64,000 bases of DNA, taken from Cloacibacterium normanense (GTDB taxonomy: Bacteria; Bacteroidota; Bacteroidia; Flavobacteriales; Weeksellaceae). The notes below the pieces were generated by a model that ran no database searches, was not told the origin of the DNA, and worked only from the letters and a program-made list of their open reading frames with translations. The stretch spans positions 1,550,001 through 1,614,000 of the forward strand of contig NZ_CP034157.1 of assembly GCF_003860565.1 (NCBI RefSeq). Reading direction: 5' to 3'. This document shows positions 10,810 to 23,564 of the stretch, in pieces. The translations under genes were made by a program, and so were the position numbers. The first letter of the stretch is position 1. Every line of letters starts with the position of its first letter.

Positions 10810-11823
10810 CTAACTCCCTACTTCCTTTCTCTTTAAATAATTTTCTAAATGAAAAGCTAAACTTTCTTCCACAGTAATGAATTGATAATTAAGCTTATCT
10901 TTTATTTTTTTATTTGATATTTTATTGAATTCGGTAACCGATTGTACGTTTACTTTATTCGCCATTTTGAGCGGAGAAATAAGCCAACCTAAAATCGTAT
11001 TCAAGAAAACGCCAACTTTTAATAAATTATTTGGAACAATTTTAACGGTTGGTTTTCCTAGTTTTTGTTTGATAAAATTGGCAACGTCTTGGTATTTTTT
11101 ATTTTCAGAAATTAAGATAAATCTTTCGCCAAAAATATTTTTTTCCATCAATTCAATGGAAATCTGAGCCACATCTCGAACATCTACGTAAGAAGTTCCT
11201 CCAGAAAATGTATAATCATTTTTTTCAAACTCCATAAAGAGGGTTCCGCTGCTTTCTTTCCAATTGCCAGAACCTATAATTAAACCAGGATTTACAATTA
11301 CCGTGTTTAAACCTTCTGCTGAAGCTCTCCAAACTTCCATTTCCGAAAAATGTTTAGAAATTGCATACGCAGAATGGTCGATTTTCGGGTTAAAATCAGA
11401 ACTTTCGTCTAATTCTCCGTTTTCATTCAATCCATCTAAAACCGCGATAGAACTTACAAAAAGGAATTTCTTCACCGAAGAATTTTGACAAGCAAATAGA
11501 AGTTGTTTGGTGCCTTCAATATTAGTTTGATACATTTTTTTTTCATCTTTAGGATGAAAACTCACTTTAGCGGCACAATGATAAACCTCTTCTACTCCAT
11601 TTAAGGCGTTTTGTAGCGAATGAATATCCTCGAAATCTACTTCTATCCATTCTATGGAATCAAAATATTCATTAGGAGTTTCTGTATAAAATTGAAATGA
11701 TTTTCTAACCTCCTGCAGATTGCTGGATTTTCTTTTTGTAGCGCGTACTGTTTTGCCACGTTTTAGCAGTTCTAAAACGATTACTCTTCCGAGAATTCCT
11801 GTTGCACCTGTAACTAATATCAT
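10810..11823 (-). CDS. NAD(P)-dependent epimerase/dehydratase (extended SDR)
   Basis: This 337-residue extended short-chain dehydrogenase has the cofactor motif TGATGILG at residues 5-12, the downstream HCAAKVSF segment, and catalytic Ser (FVSSIAV, near 124-125), Tyr153 and Lys157 (YAISK). The overall pattern resembles the dihydroflavonol-4-reductase/3-beta-HSD-like branch, and the 'NPGLIIGSGNW' strand is typical. The substrate is unknown. The start abuts the end of the 78-residue membrane gene (2 bp gap), so the three small genes probably form one transcript. Confidence 0.85.
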   Translation of the reverse strand: MILVTGATGILGRVIVLELLKRGKTVRATKRKSSNLQEVRKSFQFYTETPNEYFDSIEWIEVDFEDIHSLQNALNGVEEVYHCAAKVSFHPKDEKKMYQTNIEGTKQLLFACQNSSVKKFLFVSSIAVLDGLNENGELDESSDFNPKIDHSAYAISKHFSEMEVWRASAEGLNTVIVNPGLIIGSGNWKESSGTLFMEFEKNDYTFSGGTSYVDVRDVAQISIELMEKNIFGERFILISENKKYQDVANFIKQKLGKPTVKIVPNNLLKVGVFLNTILGWLISPLKMANKVNVQSVTEFNKISNKKIKDKLNYQFITVEESLAFHLENYLKRKEVGS

Positions 11824-12271: not shown

Positions 12272-12377
12272 TTAGAAAATATTTATTTTCAATAAAAAAT
12301 TTATTAAATCCTAAAGATAGAAAGATTTATAGAAATTTAAAGAATTTTAATTTTGCAATTTAGACGATAAAGTTTGT

Positions 12378-12385
12378 TATTTTTG
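12378..12385 (+). promoter_or_regulatory. Candidate -7 box for the GT39 gene
   Basis: TATTTTTG matches TAnnTTTG 15 bp before the ATG at 12401. A TTTG at 12352-12355 is 22 bp upstream, a plausible -33 element. The upstream TTG codon at 12374 is inside the promoter, which supports the later start. Confidence 0.55.
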
Positions 12386-12400
12386 CAAAAAGCAAAAGAT

Positions 12401-14071
12401 ATGTCTGAAATTCTAAAAAATCCACATAAAAAATTTTATTTCTTTTTAATTCTCATCACTTTGGTGAATCTTTTACAGGCATATTTTACTGAAATCACTT
12501 TAGACGAAGCCTATTACTTTCAATATGCTAGAGAATTAGACTGGGGATATTATGACCATCCACCGATGGTTGCATTGGTCATTAAGATTTCGCAGCTCTT
12601 TTTTGATGGAAATCTGGGAGTAAGATTTTTAACCGTTTTATTATTTTCTGGAAATTTATTTCTCATTTGGAAATACCTTTTGCCTCAAGATAAAGCCTCT
12701 TATGTAAATGAATTTATCATTCTATCACTAGGCTTAGTCATGATGAATGCTTATTCCTTCATCACCACGCCAGATGTTCCTTTGCTATTTTTCGGGACAA
12801 TATTTTTTATTTTGTATAAAAGATTTACCGAAAAACAAAATTTCTGGAACGCAGTTTTATTAGGAATTTCTGTAGCATTGCTTTTTTACAGTAAATATCA
12901 AGCGGTTTTATTGGTGTTTTTCGTGGTGATTTCTAACTTAAAAATGCTGACAAAACCTTACATTTATCTTGCAGGAATTGTAACTTCTCTATTGATGATT
13001 CCGCATTTAATGTGGCATATTCAGCATGATTTCCCGACGTTTCAATATCATTTAGTAGACCGTTCAGAAAAGTTTAAAATCAAATATTTCCTAGAATATC
13101 TACCGAATCAGTTTGCGGTTTTCAATCCGTTTATTTTAGTTCCTTTTGTGATTTTACTTTTTAAAAATAAATACCAAAATCTTCAAGAAAAAGCCTATTA
13201 TTTTGTAAGTGTAGGTTTCTTGGTTTTCTTTGCTTTAACCAGTCTTAGAGGACATGTAGAACCACACTGGACAGTTATTGCATCTATTCCTATGGTGATT
13301 TTATTTTTACAATTTATCAAAGAAAAACCATCTTGGCAAAAATATGCGCGCACTATCGTTTTAGGTTCACTGGTTTTGGTTTTCACCACCAGAGTTTTAT
13401 TGCTCACAGACCTTTTACCTAAAAAACTAGAATTCACAGGTAAAGAACAGAAATACAAAGCTTTAGCTGAAAAAATAGGAAAAACTCCCGTTTTATTTAC
13501 TGGTTCATTCCAATCGACTTCTTTGTACAACTATTTTACAGGAAATGAATCTTCAACTCTAGGTTCTTTAAATGTGAAAAAAACACAATTTGACATTTGG
13601 AAAAGAGAACAAAACTATTTTGGAAAAAGAGTTTTTGTAGAAAAACCAAACACACCAAGATCTCAAAAAATCATTGATGAAAACAATATTAATTTCAATG
13701 GTTTTTATGTAGAACATTTCCAAACGCCCAACCGATTAAAAATAGAATTTGAGCTTCCTTCCGAACAACTCAAAAACAATCAAATTATCCCGATTACGAT
13801 TTATAATCTTACCAAAAATGCTGTTGATTTCAATCATCCTGAAATTCCAGTGACCATTACTGCTGTATTTTTGGCGCATAGAGAAACAACGGATATTCCT
13901 ACAGAAATTGAAAAAATGCCAACCGTTTTAAAACCTGGCGAAAGTTTCAAAACTCAGATTAAAATCAACACGCAAAACCTAAAAGCTGGCGATTACAATT
14001 TCGGCATTACCACCAATTGTATTTTGGGAAATGCTTATAATTCGAAATTTGTAAAAGCAACGGTAAATTAA
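12401..14071 (+). CDS. ArnT/PMT-like glycosyltransferase family 39 protein
   Basis: This is a multi-spanning membrane glycosyltransferase that would use a polyprenyl-phosphate sugar donor at the periplasmic face. The 556-residue protein has about 10-12 TM helices to around residue 345, then a soluble beta-rich C-terminal domain. The first periplasmic loop has the family signature: the acidic pair in TLDEAYYF (Asp35, Glu36) and WGYYDHPPM (about 48-56). The TPDVPLLFF segment is also typical. The start is ATG 12401 (MSEILKN), because the earlier TTG lies in the promoter. The acceptor is unknown (lipid A or protein are candidates). It is convergent with the hydrolase, overlapping by 4 bp. Confidence 0.82.
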   Translation: MSEILKNPHKKFYFFLILITLVNLLQAYFTEITLDEAYYFQYARELDWGYYDHPPMVALVIKISQLFFDGNLGVRFLTVLLFSGNLFLIWKYLLPQDKASYVNEFIILSLGLVMMNAYSFITTPDVPLLFFGTIFFILYKRFTEKQNFWNAVLLGISVALLFYSKYQAVLLVFFVVISNLKMLTKPYIYLAGIVTSLLMIPHLMWHIQHDFPTFQYHLVDRSEKFKIKYFLEYLPNQFAVFNPFILVPFVILLFKNKYQNLQEKAYYFVSVGFLVFFALTSLRGHVEPHWTVIASIPMVILFLQFIKEKPSWQKYARTIVLGSLVLVFTTRVLLLTDLLPKKLEFTGKEQKYKALAEKIGKTPVLFTGSFQSTSLYNYFTGNESSTLGSLNVKKTQFDIWKREQNYFGKRVFVEKPNTPRSQKIIDENNINFNGFYVEHFQTPNRLKIEFELPSEQLKNNQIIPITIYNLTKNAVDFNHPEIPVTITAVFLAHRETTDIPTEIEKMPTVLKPGESFKTQIKINTQNLKAGDYNFGITTNCILGNAYNSKFVKATVN

Positions 14072-14841
14072 GTCAAAAACTCTTTTACCGCTTGATTGAA
14101 ATCTTTTGGATTTTCGGCTTGAAGCCAGTGTCCTGCATTAGCAATAGAAACCAATTGATATTTCGGGAATTGTTGGCGCATCAATAATTCATCTTGCGGA
14201 AGAATATAATGAGATTTTGCACCTGCTAAAAACAAGGTTTCGCCCTCGAATTTTCCAAATTTTATGGCATTGGCAACGAAATCATTGTATTTTTCTGCCA
14301 AAGTATTGATATTAAAACGCCAATTGAGTTTTTTATCTTCCGTCCAATACAAGTTTTTAGTCAAAAACTGAATTACAAATTTCTCTGGAATATACTGAGA
14401 TAAAACATTTTCTACGTCTTGTCTTGATTTTACTTCATCAAAATTTACCGATTGAAGCGCTTTGATAATTCCTTGATGATGTGGAGGATACGCTTTCGGA
14501 GCAATATCTGCTACAATCAGTTTTTCAACTTTTTCAGGATAAGAAATTGCGAAAGTCATCACCGCTTTTCCACCGAGAGAATGCCCGAGAAGATTGGCTT
14601 TTTCAATGCCGTGAAAGTTCATATAATTGAGAATGTCATCTGCCAAAACTTGATGATTCATCTCATCTGAATGGAAACTTTTCCCGTGATTTCTCAAGTC
14701 AATTAAATGAGTTGGAAACAATTCTCCAAACTCTTTTCCGAAACTTCCCCAATTATCTAGCATCCCGAAAAGTCCATGAAAGACAAGCAATGGCGTTCCT
14801 TTTTTTTCTTGTCCGTATATTTTTGAATGTAAAATTTGCAT
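14068..14841 (-). CDS. Alpha/beta hydrolase (YbfF-like esterase), copy A
   Basis: The 257-residue alpha/beta hydrolase contains LLVFHGLFGMLDNWG (oxyanion strand), the nucleophile elbow GHSLGG (Ser88) and the terminal catalytic His in AGHWLQ (about 238). This is the pattern of the YbfF esterase family. I start at MQILHSKIYG. The upstream frame to 14895 is not conserved in frame in the duplicate at 19418-20194, where one base in a T run shifts it, so it is leader sequence. The two copies differ at about 18 of 257 residues, mostly in the last third. The copies flank the phytase/TonB-receptor pair as direct repeats. The substrate is unknown. Confidence 0.85.
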   Translation of the reverse strand: MQILHSKIYGQEKKGTPLLVFHGLFGMLDNWGSFGKEFGELFPTHLIDLRNHGKSFHSDEMNHQVLADDILNYMNFHGIEKANLLGHSLGGKAVMTFAISYPEKVEKLIVADIAPKAYPPHHQGIIKALQSVNFDEVKSRQDVENVLSQYIPEKFVIQFLTKNLYWTEDKKLNWRFNINTLAEKYNDFVANAIKFGKFEGETLFLAGAKSHYILPQDELLMRQQFPKYQLVSIANAGHWLQAENPKDFNQAVKEFLT

Positions 14842-14954
14842 ATTTTTTTCACGCAAAGTGCGCAAGGATTTTTTATTTATTTCTAAAGCTCGCAAAGAAA
14901 AATCAATTTTTAGAATACAATTTTTCTCGCTGATTTTGCTGATTGAGCAGATTT
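14842..14954. repeat. Duplicated leader region of hydrolase copy A
   Basis: This 113-bp region is nearly identical to 20195-20307, upstream of copy B, including 'cacgcaaagtgcgca', 'tctaaagctcgcaaag' and 'gctgattgagcagattt'. The duplication therefore included the 5' flank and probably the promoter. Confidence 0.75.
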
Positions 14955-15281
14955 CTATTTTTTCAAAATTAAGGAATCTATTTTATTTGAAATTTCGTTG
15001 TGGTAAAATCTAATTCCGTTGATGTGAGGTTTGTCAATTTCAAAAAATTCTTTGGGTTGATTAGCATTTTTAAAAATTTGTTTGCCCAACTTAAAATTTA
15101 CCACTCTATCTTCTTTGCTATGAACTATTAAAATTGGTTTTTTGAAATTTTTCAAATTTTGTCTGTTGTTGTAATTATTACTAATTATTAAACCTCCAAT
15201 TACCTGAAAGTCAATTATTAACAAAAAAATTGCACAAAAAACTACTATTACAAAAGTTAGAAAAAGTTTATTGAGTTTCAT
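14955..15281 (-). pseudogene. Internally deleted alpha/beta hydrolase (remnant or small ORF)
   Basis: The 108-residue frame has an N-terminal TM anchor (about residues 7-33). It then runs straight into what looks like only the last 70 residues of a membrane-anchored alpha/beta hydrolase. The strand PILIVHSKEDRVVNF carries the catalytic Asp, FKNANQPKEFFEID follows, and KPHING carries the catalytic His. The nucleophile-serine half, about 150-180 residues in relatives, is absent. The gene is open and may be expressed, but it cannot hold a complete triad. The best explanation is an in-frame internal deletion. Confidence 0.6.
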
Positions 15282-15285
15282 GTTA

Positions 15286-15293
15286 CAAATATA
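15286..15293 (-). promoter_or_regulatory. Candidate -7 box immediately before the 108-aa ORF
   Basis: TATATTTG on the minus strand ends only 4 nt before the ATG (15281), implying a leaderless transcript. It overlaps the T tract of the phytase terminator, so it may be fortuitous. Confidence 0.35.
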
Positions 15294-15298
15294 AAAAA

Positions 15299-15325
15299 CC
15301 TCGTTTCAAATTGAATGAAACGAGG
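15299..15325. terminator. Rho-independent terminator after the phytase gene
   Basis: A perfect 10-bp stem, CCTCGTTTCA (15299-15308) with TGAAACGAGG (15316-15325), encloses a 7-nt loop. On the minus strand it is followed by a T run. It ends the TonB-receptor/phytase transcript. Confidence 0.85.
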
Positions 15326-15346
15326 CAATAAAAAGTAAAAATGTAA

Positions 15347-16375
15347 TTATTTTGTAGAATTAATTTTAGCTTCTAGGTCTCTCCAATCATAGATATGGAA
15401 GACCTTGCCATTGGTCATTGCTACAAAAATTCCCTTTGGAAATTGAGCATTGAGATTGACCGCACTAACATCTGAACCATCACTTTCTAAGGTAGAAACT
15501 GGTATTTCGGCTATCCTTCCTTTTGCAGGGTTTTCCCTTAAATAAACATTAAACATATTGGCTTGCTGATTAGAAACCAAAATATAGCCAGTCTTTTCTG
15601 AAGTGGGATAGATAGAAATTCCTTCTATATCTTCTTTGAAATCTCCCTTTCCGAAAAGCAAAAGTTCATCATTTCCTTTATTAGGGTCAGCATAGTATTG
15701 ATGTACCGCAAAACCTTCATCAGAATAATAAATATATCCTAAAGCATCATCTACAGCAATACTCTCTATTTCTTTACCTCCATTGAAATTTCCGAATTTT
15801 CTTACCAATTCTCCAGTAATTTTCCCTTCTTTTTCTACCAATTTATATTGCCAAAGATAGCTTCCTGATGGACCAGTTTTTCTACCAACTATGGCATATA
15901 TTTCTTGGGTTTCAGGATTTTTATACAGAGAAATTCCCATTGGACTTCTTTGCTGTTCGCCGTCAAAAACACTAAATTCTCCTACTTCTTTTAATTCTGG
16001 AAGACTATATAGTTTCACCTTGTTGGTTTCTCTTTCGGTAAGAGCGGCAATATCAATATTTTGACCATTTAAAACAAATCCGTAGCGCAAATCTACATTG
16101 TTTGGGCGCTTTAGATTTGGTACTTTATTCACAATTTTACCGGTGATATCAAAGGCAAAAAGGCCGCCATTAGTGTCTTTATCTGTTCCTATGATGATGC
16201 TTTTGGAGGCGTCTGTTGGGTGAATCCAAATGGCAGGATCATCGGTGTCAAAATTTACTTTTTCAGTAATATATATTGGTTTTAACTTGTCATTATTTAA
16301 TCCTGAGCCAACTGATGAACAACTAGCTAAAATGATAACTAATGATAAATAGGCTATATTCTTTAAAAATTTCAT
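15347..16375 (-). CDS. Beta-propeller 3-phytase lipoprotein
   Basis: Beta-propeller phytases release phosphate from inositol hexakisphosphate using bound Ca2+. The 342-residue protein begins with a lipoprotein signal peptide (lipobox LASC, Cys19), so it is envelope-anchored. The family hallmark DTDDPAIWIHPTDASKS is at about residues 43-59, and further propeller blades follow, such as RPNNVDLRYGF, RSPMGISLYK, GGKEIESIAVDD and DIEGISIY. The length fits a single-domain enzyme. It follows the TonB receptor by 11 bp in one operon, which suggests uptake of the phytate-derived product or a metal-phytate complex. Pho-type control is likely in general but no box is visible. Confidence 0.9.
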   Translation of the reverse strand: MKFLKNIAYLSLVIILASCSSVGSGLNNDKLKPIYITEKVNFDTDDPAIWIHPTDASKSIIIGTDKDTNGGLFAFDITGKIVNKVPNLKRPNNVDLRYGFVLNGQNIDIAALTERETNKVKLYSLPELKEVGEFSVFDGEQQRSPMGISLYKNPETQEIYAIVGRKTGPSGSYLWQYKLVEKEGKITGELVRKFGNFNGGKEIESIAVDDALGYIYYSDEGFAVHQYYADPNKGNDELLLFGKGDFKEDIEGISIYPTSEKTGYILVSNQQANMFNVYLRENPAKGRIAEIPVSTLESDGSDVSAVNLNAQFPKGIFVAMTNGKVFHIYDWRDLEAKINSTK

Positions 16376-16386
16376 AAATCGATAAA

Positions 16387-19203
16387 TTAAAAATCAAACT
16401 TTAAACCAGCTGTAAACCTTGGTTTGTAATATTCCATTTGCATAGTTCTAGCAGATACCCCTTGGTAATATCTTAACGGTTGGTTGGTCAAATTATTGGC
16501 TTCAACAAAGAATCTTAACCAATCATTAATAGAATAAGAAGCATTTGCATCTAAAAAAGTTTGTTTGTCATAATATCTATCTTCAAAATCACCTCCTCCT
16601 AACTCATCTAGATAAGCTGCAGTATGATTAAGCGATATTCTGGCAGAAAATCTTTTGTTTTCCCAAGAAAGTGAAGAATTAAACATATGTGGTGCTGTCC
16701 CTGGCAACATAAGACCTTTTCTTAAATCTCCATCTGCATTGTAAATTCCTTTGGCTTCAGATTTGGTGTAAGTATAGTTAACATATACTCCAAAATTCTT
16801 TAAAAAACCAGGTAAGAAATCTAGTTGTCTTTGTAGCGCAACTTCAAAACCATATACATTTACACTTTCTCCGTTTTTAGGATATAGAAGGGTGTAATTT
16901 TGACCTGGGACTAATGAATTTGGTAAGTCTGGAAACAATTCTGAGAATTTGTCGTAGGTAAAATTTTGGTCTCTATAATCATAGATAAAATCATTGATTT
17001 TTTTATAAAATCCGCCTACCGAAAGTAAACCTACTGATTTGAAATAATATTCTCCCATGAGATCAAAGTTATGAGCAAATGATGATTTCAAATCTGGATT
17101 CCCAGCAGTAATGTCTCTGTCATCTGGAATAATACCAACGAAAGGGGATAATTTGTAATAACTAGGTCTAGCCAATGCCGTAGAATAGGCCGCTCTAACA
17201 ACAATATTGGTTGTAGGGGAATACTTGAAGGCTAAGCTTGGTAAAAAGTTGGTATAATCATTTTTTATTCCTCTGGTTGCTGTTAGTTTTTCTTCGTCTT
17301 CTACCACGTTTCCAGTATAATTGGTATGGGTATTCTCTACTCTTACCCCTGCAATCATAGATAGTTGATCTGTGAAATTTTGATCCCATCTTACATAACC
17401 TGCATAGATTTTTTCGTCTGCTGAGTAATTTGCAAAAAGAAATTCTGAAGGCTTTTCGCTTTTCTTAAATAATGAAGGATTATGTAAGTCTAAATTTCCT
17501 AAATATTGATTAGATACAAAATATCCTGGACTGTACTTAGAATTCGGATTAAATTTTTCTCCTCCCCAAAAAACCAAGTCAGTTTGGTCCATTGTATTCA
17601 TGTTAGAACCTGTAGGTTTGTAAGAGAAGAAATCATTGTCTCTTTCTTTGGTTTTTAATCTGGTTTTAGCTCCAAGTCTTAATCTTCCTTTTTGCCCTTC
17701 GATAATAGAAAATGGTAATCTAAAATTAAATCTAGCTGTAATTTCTTCCTCATAAGTAAAACCATTTTGGTCTGTTAGATCTTGTAATTTTAATTTATTA
17801 AGCGCAACTGGAGTGGTTGGTTTTAGAAGTGGTTCTTCTGGAGAATCAAAATTTTTATCAAAAGAAACACCACTTACTCTGTAATGAATGTATCTTTCGT
17901 CTGGTCTTTGTTCTTCAGCTTTAGAGTAAGATGCGCCCCAATTCATTTCTAATTTACTCCCCAAAACGTGTTCGCCATTTACAGCATAGTTTTGCATAAT
18001 CTGTCTTTCTAATCTTGTATTATCATTAAGGTTGTTATTAACCCCTCCTTTGGTTTGATAACCTGCTCTACCAGTAAATCCAGAAATAATGGTTTTTGCT
18101 GCATCAGAATACACAGGTACTATGCTACTGTATCTTAATCTATATCTGTTTTCCCAGTCATCTCTCCAGTTATACATGGCTGAAAAACGAATTTTGTTTT
18201 TGTCATTAAATTTAAAATCCAAATCTGCTCCTACACTTTTTCTTTCTCTTTTTACATCATATTTTCTGATGTCCATTTCTTCAATATATACATTTCCTGC
18301 ATCATCTTTTGCCCAAACAGCTTCTACATTATCAGAACCATAATCGTTATTATTATAAGACCCATTAAGAACCATTCCTAATTTATTATTCAAAAATCGG
18401 TTGCTGTATACAAAACTGGTATTGTAAAGTGCTTTTTCTCTAATCGGATTATAACCAGATGCAGTAGAAAGCGATATTCTCTCTTTGGCAGAAGCACTTC
18501 TTGTAATTAAATCCACAGAACCTCCAATAGCATCAGCATCTTGGTCAGAAGTAAGGGTTTTATTTACTTCTACAATTTGTATCATATCCGAAGGAATAAG
18601 ATCCATTTGTACTTTTCTGTTGTCTCCTTCTGCAGAAGGTATTCTACTTCCGTTAATGGTTACAGAATTCAACTCTGGAGCTAAACCTCTGATGATAATG
18701 TCTCTAGCTTCACCTTGATCATTTTGCATCGTTACACCAGGTACTCTTTTTAGGGCATCTCCTATATTAGAATCAGGAAATTTACCAATTTGATCGGCCG
18801 AAATTACATTGGTAATATTAGCATTACTTTTTTGCTTATTCAATGCTCTTGCTTGATTTTGCAAGTTAAAACCAGTCAATTTTACTTCTTTTATTGTAAC
18901 TTCCTTTTTATCAAAAACAATGTTTTGTTTTGTGTTTTTTTCTGCATCTACCACCAATTCGTATTCTCTACTTCCGTAACCAATGTAGTCAACCTTCATG
19001 GTATATTTCCCTGCTGGTACATTTAGGAAAACAAAATTTCCGTATTCATCTGAAACGGTATATATATTTCCTGGAGATAAGGTAATTTTAGCACCTGGAA
19101 GTGCAATTTTAGAATTATCATTAATATTACCAGAAACGGTTCCAGTTTGTGCATAAATAAACAATCCTGCACACAAAAAAATAGTAGTAAAGATTTTTTT
19201 CAT
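16387..19203 (-). CDS. TonB-dependent receptor (phytase-linked)
   Basis: This 938-residue outer-membrane transporter has a signal peptide (about 1-18), a CarboxypepD-like regulatory beta domain (about 20-92, GTVSGNINDN ... GKYTMKVDYIGYGSREYEL), a plug domain (NVISADQIGKFPDSNIGDALKRVPG onwards) and a 22-strand barrel ending in the aromatic C-terminus GLKFDF. The plug motif IIRGLAPELNSVTINGSRIP is characteristic of the large receptors often paired with phytases and other hydrolases. There is no SusD partner gene, so it is not a classical SusCD pair. A -7 box lies 21 bp upstream (19224-19231). It is first in the operon with the phytase. Confidence 0.92.
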   Translation of the reverse strand: MKKIFTTIFLCAGLFIYAQTGTVSGNINDNSKIALPGAKITLSPGNIYTVSDEYGNFVFLNVPAGKYTMKVDYIGYGSREYELVVDAEKNTKQNIVFDKKEVTIKEVKLTGFNLQNQARALNKQKSNANITNVISADQIGKFPDSNIGDALKRVPGVTMQNDQGEARDIIIRGLAPELNSVTINGSRIPSAEGDNRKVQMDLIPSDMIQIVEVNKTLTSDQDADAIGGSVDLITRSASAKERISLSTASGYNPIREKALYNTSFVYSNRFLNNKLGMVLNGSYNNNDYGSDNVEAVWAKDDAGNVYIEEMDIRKYDVKRERKSVGADLDFKFNDKNKIRFSAMYNWRDDWENRYRLRYSSIVPVYSDAAKTIISGFTGRAGYQTKGGVNNNLNDNTRLERQIMQNYAVNGEHVLGSKLEMNWGASYSKAEEQRPDERYIHYRVSGVSFDKNFDSPEEPLLKPTTPVALNKLKLQDLTDQNGFTYEEEITARFNFRLPFSIIEGQKGRLRLGAKTRLKTKERDNDFFSYKPTGSNMNTMDQTDLVFWGGEKFNPNSKYSPGYFVSNQYLGNLDLHNPSLFKKSEKPSEFLFANYSADEKIYAGYVRWDQNFTDQLSMIAGVRVENTHTNYTGNVVEDEEKLTATRGIKNDYTNFLPSLAFKYSPTTNIVVRAAYSTALARPSYYKLSPFVGIIPDDRDITAGNPDLKSSFAHNFDLMGEYYFKSVGLLSVGGFYKKINDFIYDYRDQNFTYDKFSELFPDLPNSLVPGQNYTLLYPKNGESVNVYGFEVALQRQLDFLPGFLKNFGVYVNYTYTKSEAKGIYNADGDLRKGLMLPGTAPHMFNSSLSWENKRFSARISLNHTAAYLDELGGGDFEDRYYDKQTFLDANASYSINDWLRFFVEANNLTNQPLRYYQGVSARTMQMEYYKPRFTAGLKFDF

Positions 19204-19223
19204 AACTTCTTATTAAACTGACG

Positions 19224-19231
19224 CAAATGTA
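19224..19231 (-). promoter_or_regulatory. Candidate -7 box for the TonB-receptor/phytase operon
   Basis: The minus strand reads TACATTTG, matching TAnnTTTG, 21 bp upstream of the receptor ATG. The rest of 19232-19417 is extremely AT-rich with no gene. No clear -33 TTG is present at the usual spacing, so an activator may be needed. Confidence 0.5.
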
Positions 19232-19417
19232 GAAGTATGAAAACAGAATAATCTTAATTGAAATTTAAAGATATATTAAAAAAATATAAATCAATCAAAA
19301 GTATAATTAAATTTAAAACACTGATAGTATGACAATTAAATAAAATTAAATATAAGGAATTCTATCAAAAATTAAAATTAATTTAAAACAAAACTATCTC
19401 AATAAAATTTAAAATTA

Positions 19418-20194
19418 TTATTGAGATAGAAATTCTTTGACCGCAAAATTAAAATCTTTCGGGTTTTGTGCTTGTACCCAATGCCCCGAATTTTCTATGG
19501 TAACCAATTGATATTTAGGAAATTGTTGACGTATCAATAATTCATCTTGTGGAAGAATATAATTCGATTTTGCACCTGCAATAAACAATGTTTCGCCTTC
19601 AAATTTCCCAAATTTTATCGCATTCGAAACAAATTCTGTGTATTTTTCTGCCAAAGTATGGAGATTGAAACGCCAATTGAGTTTTTTATCTTCCGTCCAA
19701 TACAAATTTTTAGTCAAAAACTGAATTACAAATTTCTCTGGAATGTACTGAGCCAAAACGTTTTCCACGTCTTGTCTTGATTTTACTTCATCGAAATTTA
19801 CAGATTGAAGTGCTTTTATAATTCCTTGATGATGAGGAGGATATGCTTTTGGAGCAATGTCTGCAACAATGAGTTTTTCTACTTTTTCAGGATAAGAAAT
19901 GGCGAAAGTCATCACTGCTTTTCCGCCAAGAGAATGCCCGAGAAGATTGGCTTTTTCAATGCCGTGAAAGTTCATATAATTGAGAATGTCATCTGCCAAA
20001 ACTTGATGATTCATCTCTTCTGAATGAAAACTTTTTCCGTGATTTCTCAAATCAATCAAATGAGTTGGAAACAATTCTCCAAACTCTTTTCCGAAACTTC
20101 CCCAATTGTCTAACATCCCGAAAAGTCCATGAAAAACGAGCAATGGCGTTCCAGATTTTTCTTGTCCGTATATTTTTGAATGTAAAATTTGCAT
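19418..20194 (-). CDS. Alpha/beta hydrolase (YbfF-like esterase), copy B
   Basis: The 258-residue paralogue of copy A has the same catalytic elements: GHSLGG with Ser88, and SGHWVQ with His near 238. Differences cluster after residue 150, for example in the cap and strand-7 region (AGAKSNYILPQ, ENSGHWVQAQ), so the copies may have diverged in substrate preference or be held similar at the 5' end by gene conversion. The start is MQILHSKIYG for the reason given for copy A. It is transcribed in the same direction as the receptor and phytase genes but lies upstream of their promoter. Confidence 0.85.
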   Translation of the reverse strand: MQILHSKIYGQEKSGTPLLVFHGLFGMLDNWGSFGKEFGELFPTHLIDLRNHGKSFHSEEMNHQVLADDILNYMNFHGIEKANLLGHSLGGKAVMTFAISYPEKVEKLIVADIAPKAYPPHHQGIIKALQSVNFDEVKSRQDVENVLAQYIPEKFVIQFLTKNLYWTEDKKLNWRFNLHTLAEKYTEFVSNAIKFGKFEGETLFIAGAKSNYILPQDELLIRQQFPKYQLVTIENSGHWVQAQNPKDFNFAVKEFLSQ

Positions 20195-20307
20195 ATTTTT
20201 TTTCACGCAAAGTGCGCAGAATTTTTTATTTATTTCTAAAGCTCGCAAAGAAAAATCAATCTTTAGAATACAATTTTTCTCTCTGATTTTGCTGATTGAG
20301 CAGATTT
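20195..20307. repeat. Duplicated leader region of hydrolase copy B
   Basis: This is the counterpart of 14842-14954. A T-run length difference (one base) directly upstream of the ATG and a short indel at 'gtgcgcagaatt' are the main changes. It marks the 5' end of the segmental duplication. Confidence 0.75.
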
Positions 20308-20337: not shown

Positions 20338-21057
20338 TTACCATTTCGCCAATCTCTTTAAATACACTTGAATAGTGTTCTCTAAACCCAAATACAACGC
20401 TTCAGAAATCAGAGCATGACCTATTGAAACTTCCAATAAATTAGGAATATTATCTGCGAAATATTTTAAATTATCTAAACTCAAATCATGACCTGCATTA
20501 ATTCCTAAACCATATTTTGTAGCTTCTACAGCGGTTTCATAGTAAGGTTTTATAGCGGCTTCTTTGTCGGTTTCGTAATTTCTGGCGTAAGCTTCTGTAT
20601 ACAATTCAATTCTGTCTGTTCCTGTTTCTGCTGCAAATTTTACCATTTCTGGATTTGGGTCAAGGAAAATAGACGTTCTAATCCCTGCATTTTTAAATTC
20701 TGCAATCACGGATTTCAAAAAATCTAGATTTTTTTCACAATCCCAACCTGCATTAGAAGTGATGGCATCATCTGCATCTGGAACCAAGGTAACTTGCTCT
20801 GGTTTTACTTCTAAAACCATATCAATAAAAGGACGATGAGGATTTCCCTCGATATTAAATTCTGTATACACCAAAGGTTTCAAATCGTACACATCTTTTC
20901 TGGTGATATGTCTTTCGTCTGGTCTTGGATGGATGGTAATTCCTTGTCCGCCAAATTCCTGAATTTTGATCGCTGCTTCGGTTACACTAGGAGTTTCTGC
21001 GCCTCTTGCATTTCTGATGGTCGCTATTTTATTGATATTTACTGATAATTTTGTCAT
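20338..21057 (-). CDS. pdxJ: Pyridoxine 5'-phosphate synthase
   Basis: PdxJ condenses 1-deoxy-xylulose 5-phosphate with 3-amino-2-oxopropyl phosphate to give pyridoxine 5'-phosphate. From [10 protein letters not shown] the protein is 239 residues, the normal size. It contains the N-terminal [14 protein letters not shown], the catalytic-loop block [32 protein letters not shown] and [15 protein letters not shown]. The open frame extends 41 codons further to 21180, but that part lacks homology, overlaps the end of the MscS gene and is rejected. It lies 58 bp downstream of the MscS gene on the same strand. Confidence 0.94.
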
Positions 21058-21115
21058 TTTCTGTTGTTGGTAATTTAATACTTGGTTCTTTTTTCTTTTT
21101 AATTGGCTCTTTGAC

Positions 21116-22351
21116 TTACGCTTTTGCCACTTGCATGATTTCAAGGTCAAATTCTTGTGCTGCGGTAAGAATATGGTCAAAAATATCTGCCTGAATTCTT
21201 TCGTAATCTACCAATTCTGCTTTGTTGGCAAAACAATAGATTTCCAAAGGCATTCCTTGAGGTGAAATTTCTAACTGACGAACCAAAATGATTTCGTCTT
21301 GATCTACTTTTGGATTATTTTTGAGGTAATTCAACACATAATTTCTAAAAAGTCCGATGTTGGTTAACTGTTGACCATTGATAATTCTTTCAGCATGTGG
21401 AATATTCTTCTTGCTTTCTGCAATTTCGCGAAGTTTTCTATCCATATATTCAGAAATCAAGTTGATGTCTTTTACTTTTTCATAAAATTCATCATCCACA
21501 AATTTGAAAGACTTGATATTGAAATAAATCGAACGCTTAATTCTTCGGCTGCTTCCTTCGTACATTACTTGGTGATTTCTGATTTCCGTAGAAAGCAAAT
21601 CATAGGTAGGAATCGTGGAAATGGTTTTGTCAAAATTGACAATTTTAGTCGTCAATAAGTTGATATCTTGAATATTTCCTTCAATATTATACTTCGGAAT
21701 TCCAATCCAGTCGCCTACTTTCATATTTTTGGAAGTAGAAACGTGCACTCCAGTTACAAAACCTAAAATGGTATCTCGAAAAACCAATAAAATAACGGCT
21801 GTAATTGCTCCTAAAAAGGTAATTACCGTATTAAGGCTGATTCCAAAAATGACAAAAATTCCGATAATGGCGAAAATGACCATTCCAAAAATTCTTAAAC
21901 TTTCAGAAATTGCTTTAATTGCTGTAATCCTGTATCGATCTTCTTTGTGAATGTAATATGCCTCAAAAGTTTTCACAATTCTATAAGCCAACATGGTAAA
22001 AACCAAAACTTGCCCAAACATTAATAGTCTTTCAAAAAAAGTAAAACTTTTAGGATGTCGCCAAAAAATATCATCTATGAGCCAAAAACAAAATGCTAAT
22101 GAAAATAAATGTGCAATAGAGTTTTGAACCTTAGCTTTGTAGGCAAATTTTAAAAATTCATTATTAGAAATTCTGACAAAAATTCTTGAAATGAGAGTAA
22201 TTGTAACTCTCAAAAGAATATCAATCACGAAAAAAAACGCAAAGAGCAAAAGCATTTTTAACCCAATTTGAAAGGGCAAAATAAGACTGTCTGTAAAATT
22301 ATCTTTCACAAAAAAATGAATCTGTTCGCTAAAACTTTTTAGAAATCCCAT
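21116..22351 (-). CDS. MscS-family mechanosensitive channel (YbdG-like)
   Basis: The 411-residue protein has about five N-terminal TM helices (first at about 25-55, last a pore-lining helix near 165-200 with ALxxG-like small residues, [19 protein letters not shown]). The MscS beta domain follows ([37 protein letters not shown]), then an alpha/beta C-terminal domain. The longer TM region and the extended '[12 protein letters not shown]' part resemble the E. coli YbdG/MscM subgroup. It would relieve osmotic pressure at the inner membrane. Confidence 0.88.
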
Positions 22352-23407: not shown

Positions 23408-23540
23408 GGGCGTGTCTTTTTCTCCAAAACTTTTGCCAACAACCGAAAAAAGACCGTGCTTTCCGTTACAATCTTTTTTTCGGCGGCTTCGTCAAGCTCA
23501 GCCACAAAAAAAAGGATTTCCACTGCAATCGCTCACGCAA
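23408..23540. repeat. Dispersed intergenic repeat (GGGCGTG ... CACGC ends)
   Basis: This block of about 130 bp lies between convergent genes. Its ends carry GCGTG/CACGC complementarity. Inside, 'ccgttacaatcttttttt' pairs with 'aaaaaaaaggatttcc', and 'actgcaatcgctcacgc' is at the right end. I recognise the layout (GGGCGTG, CCGCTACAATC, T-run, A-run, CACTGCAATC-CCTCACGC) from Flavobacteriia genomes. No protein is encoded. Confidence 0.6.
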
Positions 23541-23564
23541 AAGAACGGTAAATCATAAAATTCA

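Follow-up and report, generated by a model that had tools for sequence, protein, structure and literature searches.

A Phytase/TonB-Receptor Cassette between Two Hydrolase Copies in Cloacibacterium normanense: Probably Two Versions of an Exchangeable Slot in Tandem

Introduction

In Cloacibacterium normanense, the genes for a phytase and its TonB-dependent receptor lie between two similar hydrolase genes that have the same orientation. This raises the question of how a cassette came to be bracketed by copies of one gene and whether these copies could be the means of its loss. An earlier note on this DNA attributed the likeness of the copies to gene conversion or recent duplication. The answer that we prefer, and hold to be probable, is that the interval between the hydrolase and an epimerase gene is an exchangeable slot, two versions of which stand here in tandem as the outcome of one-sided homologous plus illegitimate recombination.

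The window, meaning the whole stretch of 64,000 nucleotides that was analysed, comes from one of seven Cloacibacterium genomes, one per species. Among the others, G002, G003, G004, and G006 constitute the PMT-linked clade, and G001/G005 (the C. rupense/UBA1937 type) serve as the contrasting type. The features of the locus are the following.

10810–11823, minus strand: NAD-dependent epimerase/dehydratase-like gene, a core gene on the slot side opposite to pdxJ
12374–14071, plus strand: PMT-family glycosyltransferase gene (PF13231), which is what the slot carries in the PMT-linked clade; it has a 4-bp overlap with the 3′ end of hydA
14068–14841 (14895 with the upstream TTG), minus strand: hydA, a YbfF-like alpha/beta esterase gene, uniformly of the PMT-linked clade type
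14842–14954: 5′ flank of hydA, 113 bp in common with hydB
14955–15281, minus strand: broken lipase-like (S33/Hydrolase_4) gene, its C-terminal 83 codons fused to 27 unrelated codons
15347–16375, minus strand: beta-propeller phytase gene (PF02333), the N-terminus of the product resembling a lipoprotein signal
16387–19203, minus strand: gene for the TonB-dependent receptor paired with the phytase (TIGR01782 above cut-off)
19418–20194 (20248 with the upstream TTG), minus strand: hydB, a mosaic YbfF-like esterase copy, of the G001/G005 type in the 3′ third (about 19445–19667) and in a patch (about 19802–19928), the remainder being compatible with the PMT-linked clade
20195–20307: 5′ flank of hydB, 113 bp in common with hydA
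20338–21063 (ORF to 21180 with the upstream TTG), minus strand: pdxJ, a conserved core gene bounding the locus on one side

The Cassette

The phytase carries PF02333 above cut-off and matches solved 3-phytases, and this domain, together with the receptor assignment, bears out the cassette content given in the earlier note. In F. johnsoniae, the genes of the phytase/TonB pair Fjoh_1367/Fjoh_1368 are both induced by phosphate depletion, and the scavenging of phosphate from phytate has been proposed (PMC8115612); a phytase–TonB receptor pair has likewise been noted in Citromicrobium (PMC3400609). As in F. johnsoniae, the PF02333 phytase of the window adjoins a TonB-dependent transporter with PF07715 and PF13715; unlike the F. 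johnsoniae pair, characterised by its response to phosphate depletion, the pair in the window is distinguished by its place in the hydrolase slot. Because phytase and TonB receptor are a known pairing, phytate use by this strain can reasonably be expected, and the two proteins probably scavenge phosphate from phytate.

Several candidate origins were rejected. A plasmid origin of the phytase was discarded in view of the plasmid matches, none of which reaches 60% identity and most of which come from other phyla. Base composition gives no signal, as it is nowhere atypical (GC3 is 0.22–0.30 throughout). The locus does not qualify as a composite transposon, since its terminal repeats are esterase genes that encode no transposase. 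An integrase-driven island was dismissed as well: a domain search turned up neither an integrase nor a transposase domain in any of the slot genes, and the window was found to contain no tRNA. A search for the source of the PMT cargo returned relatives outside Cloacibacterium that are only 29–36% identical.

The Two Hydrolase Copies

hydA and hydB match far beyond chance. Counted from the ATG of MQILHS, their proteins differ at 18 of 257 positions (93.0% identity), and the two genes with their flanks form an 878-bp repeat with 91% DNA identity and two 1-bp gaps. The starts of the genes, which have equal orientation, are 5,353 bp apart, and these are the only full copies of the hydrolase in the 2.76-Mb single-contig genome. 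Assembly error is unlikely, given that about 9% of bases are different between the copies and that both sit in one contig. In windows of 75 columns, identity is 89–98% up to alignment column ~675 and 71–88% thereafter, and the longest exact stretch common to the copies is 89 bp. The description in the earlier note thus holds in its main points, namely two proteins about 93% identical with 113-bp 5′ flanks, direct repeats that bracket the cassette, and the greatest likeness in the 5′ half.

A 20-mer, TTTTGCTGATTGAGCAGATT, is present in both flanks (14934–14953 and 20287–20306), and a pattern search found it dispersed 4–9 times (with at most 2 mismatches) in six of the seven Cloacibacterium genomes. 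Since the final ~30 bp of the 5′ flank is a dispersed repeat, that part is not specific to the hydrolase duplication.

The mosaic structure of hydB was demonstrated using the 33 sites that separate the PMT-linked clade from G001/G005. hydA has the clade allele at 30 of them; hydB has it at 10, and at the other 23, which comprise 3 sites of the middle patch and 20 of the 3′ third, it carries the G001/G005 allele. The MaxChi permutation test gave a p value of 0.0014. Trees group the 3′ segment of hydB with G001/G005 (UFboot 93–94) and place the patch there likewise. A position of hydB at the base of the PMT-linked clade is not rejected for the 3′ part (AU 0.167), and AU rejects none of the four placements tested for the 5′ part.

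That the hydrolase was recently duplicated around the cassette, or that ongoing gene conversion keeps the 5′ halves similar, would be in keeping with the fact that the 5′ halves are more alike than the 3′ halves and with a weak grouping of the two copies in the tree of the 5′ part (UFboot 65–71). Against this, the 5′ parts of A and B are as far apart in dS (0.35) as those of different species (0.34 for A and G006), and in the 3′ part the value rises to 0.91, far above the 0.12 for A and G006; moreover, a sister relationship of A and B is rejected both for the 3′ part and for the patch (AU p 4.7e-6 and 5e-4). The copies are therefore not closer to one another than to their orthologues in sister species, which argues against recent duplication and recent conversion alike. 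The conservation of hydB–receptor–phytase as a unit in other genera (see below) also speaks against this explanation, so the earlier note's account of the likeness was not borne out, and we give it next to no chance of being correct. The divergence between the 5′ parts of hydB and hydA means that the fusion is not recent or that the 5′ part was exchanged later. As for the 3′ types, that of the PMT-linked clade appears to be the divergent one, the distance of the hydB type to G001/G005 (dS 0.38–0.41) being about equal to that between G001 and G005 (0.49).

The Locus in Other Cloacibacterium Species

The genus shares the order pdxJ–hydrolase–(PMT)–epimerase, and PMT itself occurs in five of its seven genomes. 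The earlier note had proposed a search among relatives for single-hydrolase versions lacking phytase, and such versions were found in all six other species: each has one hydrolase and no phytase, and a receptor comparable to that of the cassette is absent from these six genomes. The pdxJ–hydrolase–PMT layout in G002, G003, and G006 is the exact product to be expected from a crossover between A and B, and is consistent with excision. In G004, a lipase-like alpha/beta hydrolase gene stands intact between pdxJ and the hydrolase, and there is no trace of phytase. Among the genomes of the genus, no Cloacibacterium donor with a hydB-type 3′ end and a phytase was found.

These layouts bear on the possibility that the tandem is ancestral. 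The ancestor of the PMT-linked clade would have had both units, which the lineage of the window would have kept, whilst the others would have lost hydB–receptor–phytase, some of them by the A × B crossover that would leave the layout of G002, G003, and G006. The dS values of the hydB 3′ end are such that B may be the native type of the genus, and the species-level divergence of the 5′ parts could mean that the tandem state is old. However, several independent losses, including those in G001/G005, would be needed in place of one gain; G004, with its complete lipase-like gene, is not the product of an A × B crossover; and the cassette is demonstrably mobile at the same slot in other genera. On balance, we think such an ancestral tandem unlikely.

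Two further features lie near pdxJ. Positions 21116–22351 encode an mscS-like channel protein that is 96% identical to that of G002 only and about 76% identical to those of G003, G004, and G006; the nucleotide identity of the gene to the latter three drops to ~65% over 22000–22300, which makes a second mosaic tract beside pdxJ. On the minus strand, 23448–23543 correspond to a Flavo-1 RNA (RF01705), above the gathering score.

The Broken Lipase-Like Gene

The second junction of the cassette lies in a broken gene. This lipase-like remnant is 93% identical in nucleotides to the gene of G004 up to position 15199 and unrelated to it beyond; compared with the G004 gene, the first 213 codons are missing in the window, which amounts to a loss on the assumption of a G004-like recipient. 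A search of the 38 other genomes returned no copy comparably similar to the lipase-like gene. The simplest reading of this junction would be that pdxJ–hydB–receptor–phytase was inserted beside a resident hydA–PMT.

The stretch from 15200 to 15281 (about 27 codons), unrelated to the G004 gene, is fused in frame at the start of the minus-strand ORF. G001 was considered as the source of these extra codons and rejected, since the 34-bp match there falls in an unrelated gene. The 20-mer described above also flanks the lipase-like gene in G004 and could mediate the loss of that gene.

The Slot in Other Genera

The order epimerase–phytase–receptor–hydrolase–pdxJ recurs in four other genera (g9, g20, g26, and g27), and in a fifth (g19, genome G024), phytase–receptor–hydrolase–pdxJ extends up to the contig end. 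In many relatives, the slot is empty or otherwise filled: between the same two core genes, there may be phytase and receptor, PMT, graspetide-like genes, an esterase, or nothing. Since hydB–receptor–phytase is the conserved slot order in other genera, copy B belongs with the cassette and did not arise by duplication of a resident gene around it. Given that this unit is so widely shared, the oddity of the window is the extra unit behind it, lipase fragment–hydA–PMT.

The contents of the slot have a history that differs from that of its flanks. Four g9 genomes (G123, G094, G137, and G141) have phytase and receptor genes that are 98.6–99.5% identical in nucleotides; in the pairs with G123, the flanks are 67–80% identical and the epimerase and pdxJ genes 73–76%. 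The shared tracts start about 155–200 bp inside the epimerase gene and finish in or at the hydrolase. The flanks of G137 and G094 are close as well (96% for the epimerase and 92% for pdxJ), so this pair alone is no evidence of transfer. Across genera, the cassettes of G089 (g26) and G032 (g27) are 94% identical, as against 69–80% for the flanks, the shared tract running from within the epimerase gene to a point next to the hydrolase; set against its congener G031, which has an empty slot, G089 has a clean insertion in the space that separates the two flanking genes. Finally, the phytase and receptor trees group the genomes otherwise than the hydrolase and epimerase trees do, and in a matching way. 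With 94–100% identity in the cassette as against 67–80% in the flanks, these comparisons show that the cassette has been transferred between species and genera at the hydrolase–epimerase slot, with breakpoints that lie within the flanking genes or next to them.

Other cargo was seen in several loci. An ATP-grasp-like gene pair lies between the epimerase and the hydrolase in three g20 loci (L104, L105, and L100 of G155, G242, and G025, respectively), two of which also encode a large ABC-transporter-like protein that begins like a C39 peptidase; named by eye from the sequence alone, these loci suggest a graspetide-like cluster as an alternative cargo. In G014 (g9), an alpha/beta esterase-like gene (locus L097, 7991–8932) fills the slot. 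A related receptor–phytase pair occupies the hydrolase slot in g20 (L104 and L105 of G155 and G242) and lies elsewhere in g9 (L114 and L115 of G118 and G160), with about 79–89% nucleotide identity in most 250-bp windows; the difference in location suggests that the pair also moves between loci.

Origin of the Tandem Arrangement

How, then, did two units come to stand side by side? In the reading that we prefer, the interval from the hydrolase next to pdxJ to the NAD-epimerase would be an exchangeable slot. Strains and species would trade its contents through homologous recombination in the core genes on either side, for which a mobile element would be unnecessary. Incoming DNA with pdxJ–hydB–receptor–phytase would have entered a cell with the locus pdxJ–lipase-like gene–hydA–PMT and would have recombined homologously on its pdxJ/hydrolase side. 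An illegitimate join inside the lipase-like gene (15199/15200) would have removed the N-terminal part of this gene and spared hydA–PMT, so that the incoming version would have come to stand next to the resident one and not in its place. We infer this one-sided mechanism, along with the lineage of the donor and the order of events, from the junctions and alleles described above.

Precedents exist for several of these steps. Recombination hotspots without mobile elements have been described (PMC5635113). Like them, the present locus, compared alone, has variable cargo between two conserved core genes and a recombination signal in the flanking genes, with no integrase or tRNA found in the window; unlike them, it is one slot across genera, and a flanking gene would have been duplicated by an additive event. 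For the T6SS immunity arrays of V. cholerae, homology-facilitated illegitimate recombination, with resident genes kept, has been proposed (PMC5361080), and the process is summarised in PMC3240628. Judged from the recipient side of the join, the likeness lies in a broken resident gene and in the remaining residents beside the new module, and would extend to a homology anchor on one side; the cargo here serves nutrient uptake. Riemerella, a relative of Cloacibacterium, is naturally competent (PMC8459023).

Another possibility is an integration of the Campbell type, in which a circular molecule with lipase fragment–hydrolase–receptor–phytase would have entered by one crossover inside the single hydrolase of a G003-like recipient. 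This would account for a cassette enclosed by two directly oriented hydrolases, and the breakpoint that it predicts inside a hydrolase matches hydB. It would also make the two copies reciprocal mosaics, so that the 5′ part of hydA would be of the donor type, yet hydA is of the clade type at all but three of the diagnostic sites; the circular donor that it requires, moreover, sits badly with the low identity of the plasmid phytase matches. We consider this route decidedly improbable and retain the one-sided addition beside the resident unit.

Stability and Significance

Exact tracts of up to 89 bp are in principle enough for a RecA-dependent crossover, so the deletion of the cassette by a crossover between A and B is plausible. 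A broader and rather doubtful proposal is that the hydrolase is a family-wide docking gene with a 3′ third that travels with the cargo, the duplicated state being a transient intermediate in cargo swapping. If this were true, additive events would yield a two-hydrolase tandem, from which either cargo could later be dropped by an A × B crossover.

An accessory slot exchanged through flanking core genes is of a kind already known, and the locus described here offers a well-resolved instance of it in the tandem state. It means that a trait that is likely to be phosphate scavenging can reach the same slot across species and genera without a recognisable mobile element and with breakpoints visible at the level of the sequence, that the scar of an additive event can be a duplicated core gene, and that the resulting direct repeats would provide a simple route for the loss of the phytase/receptor trait.
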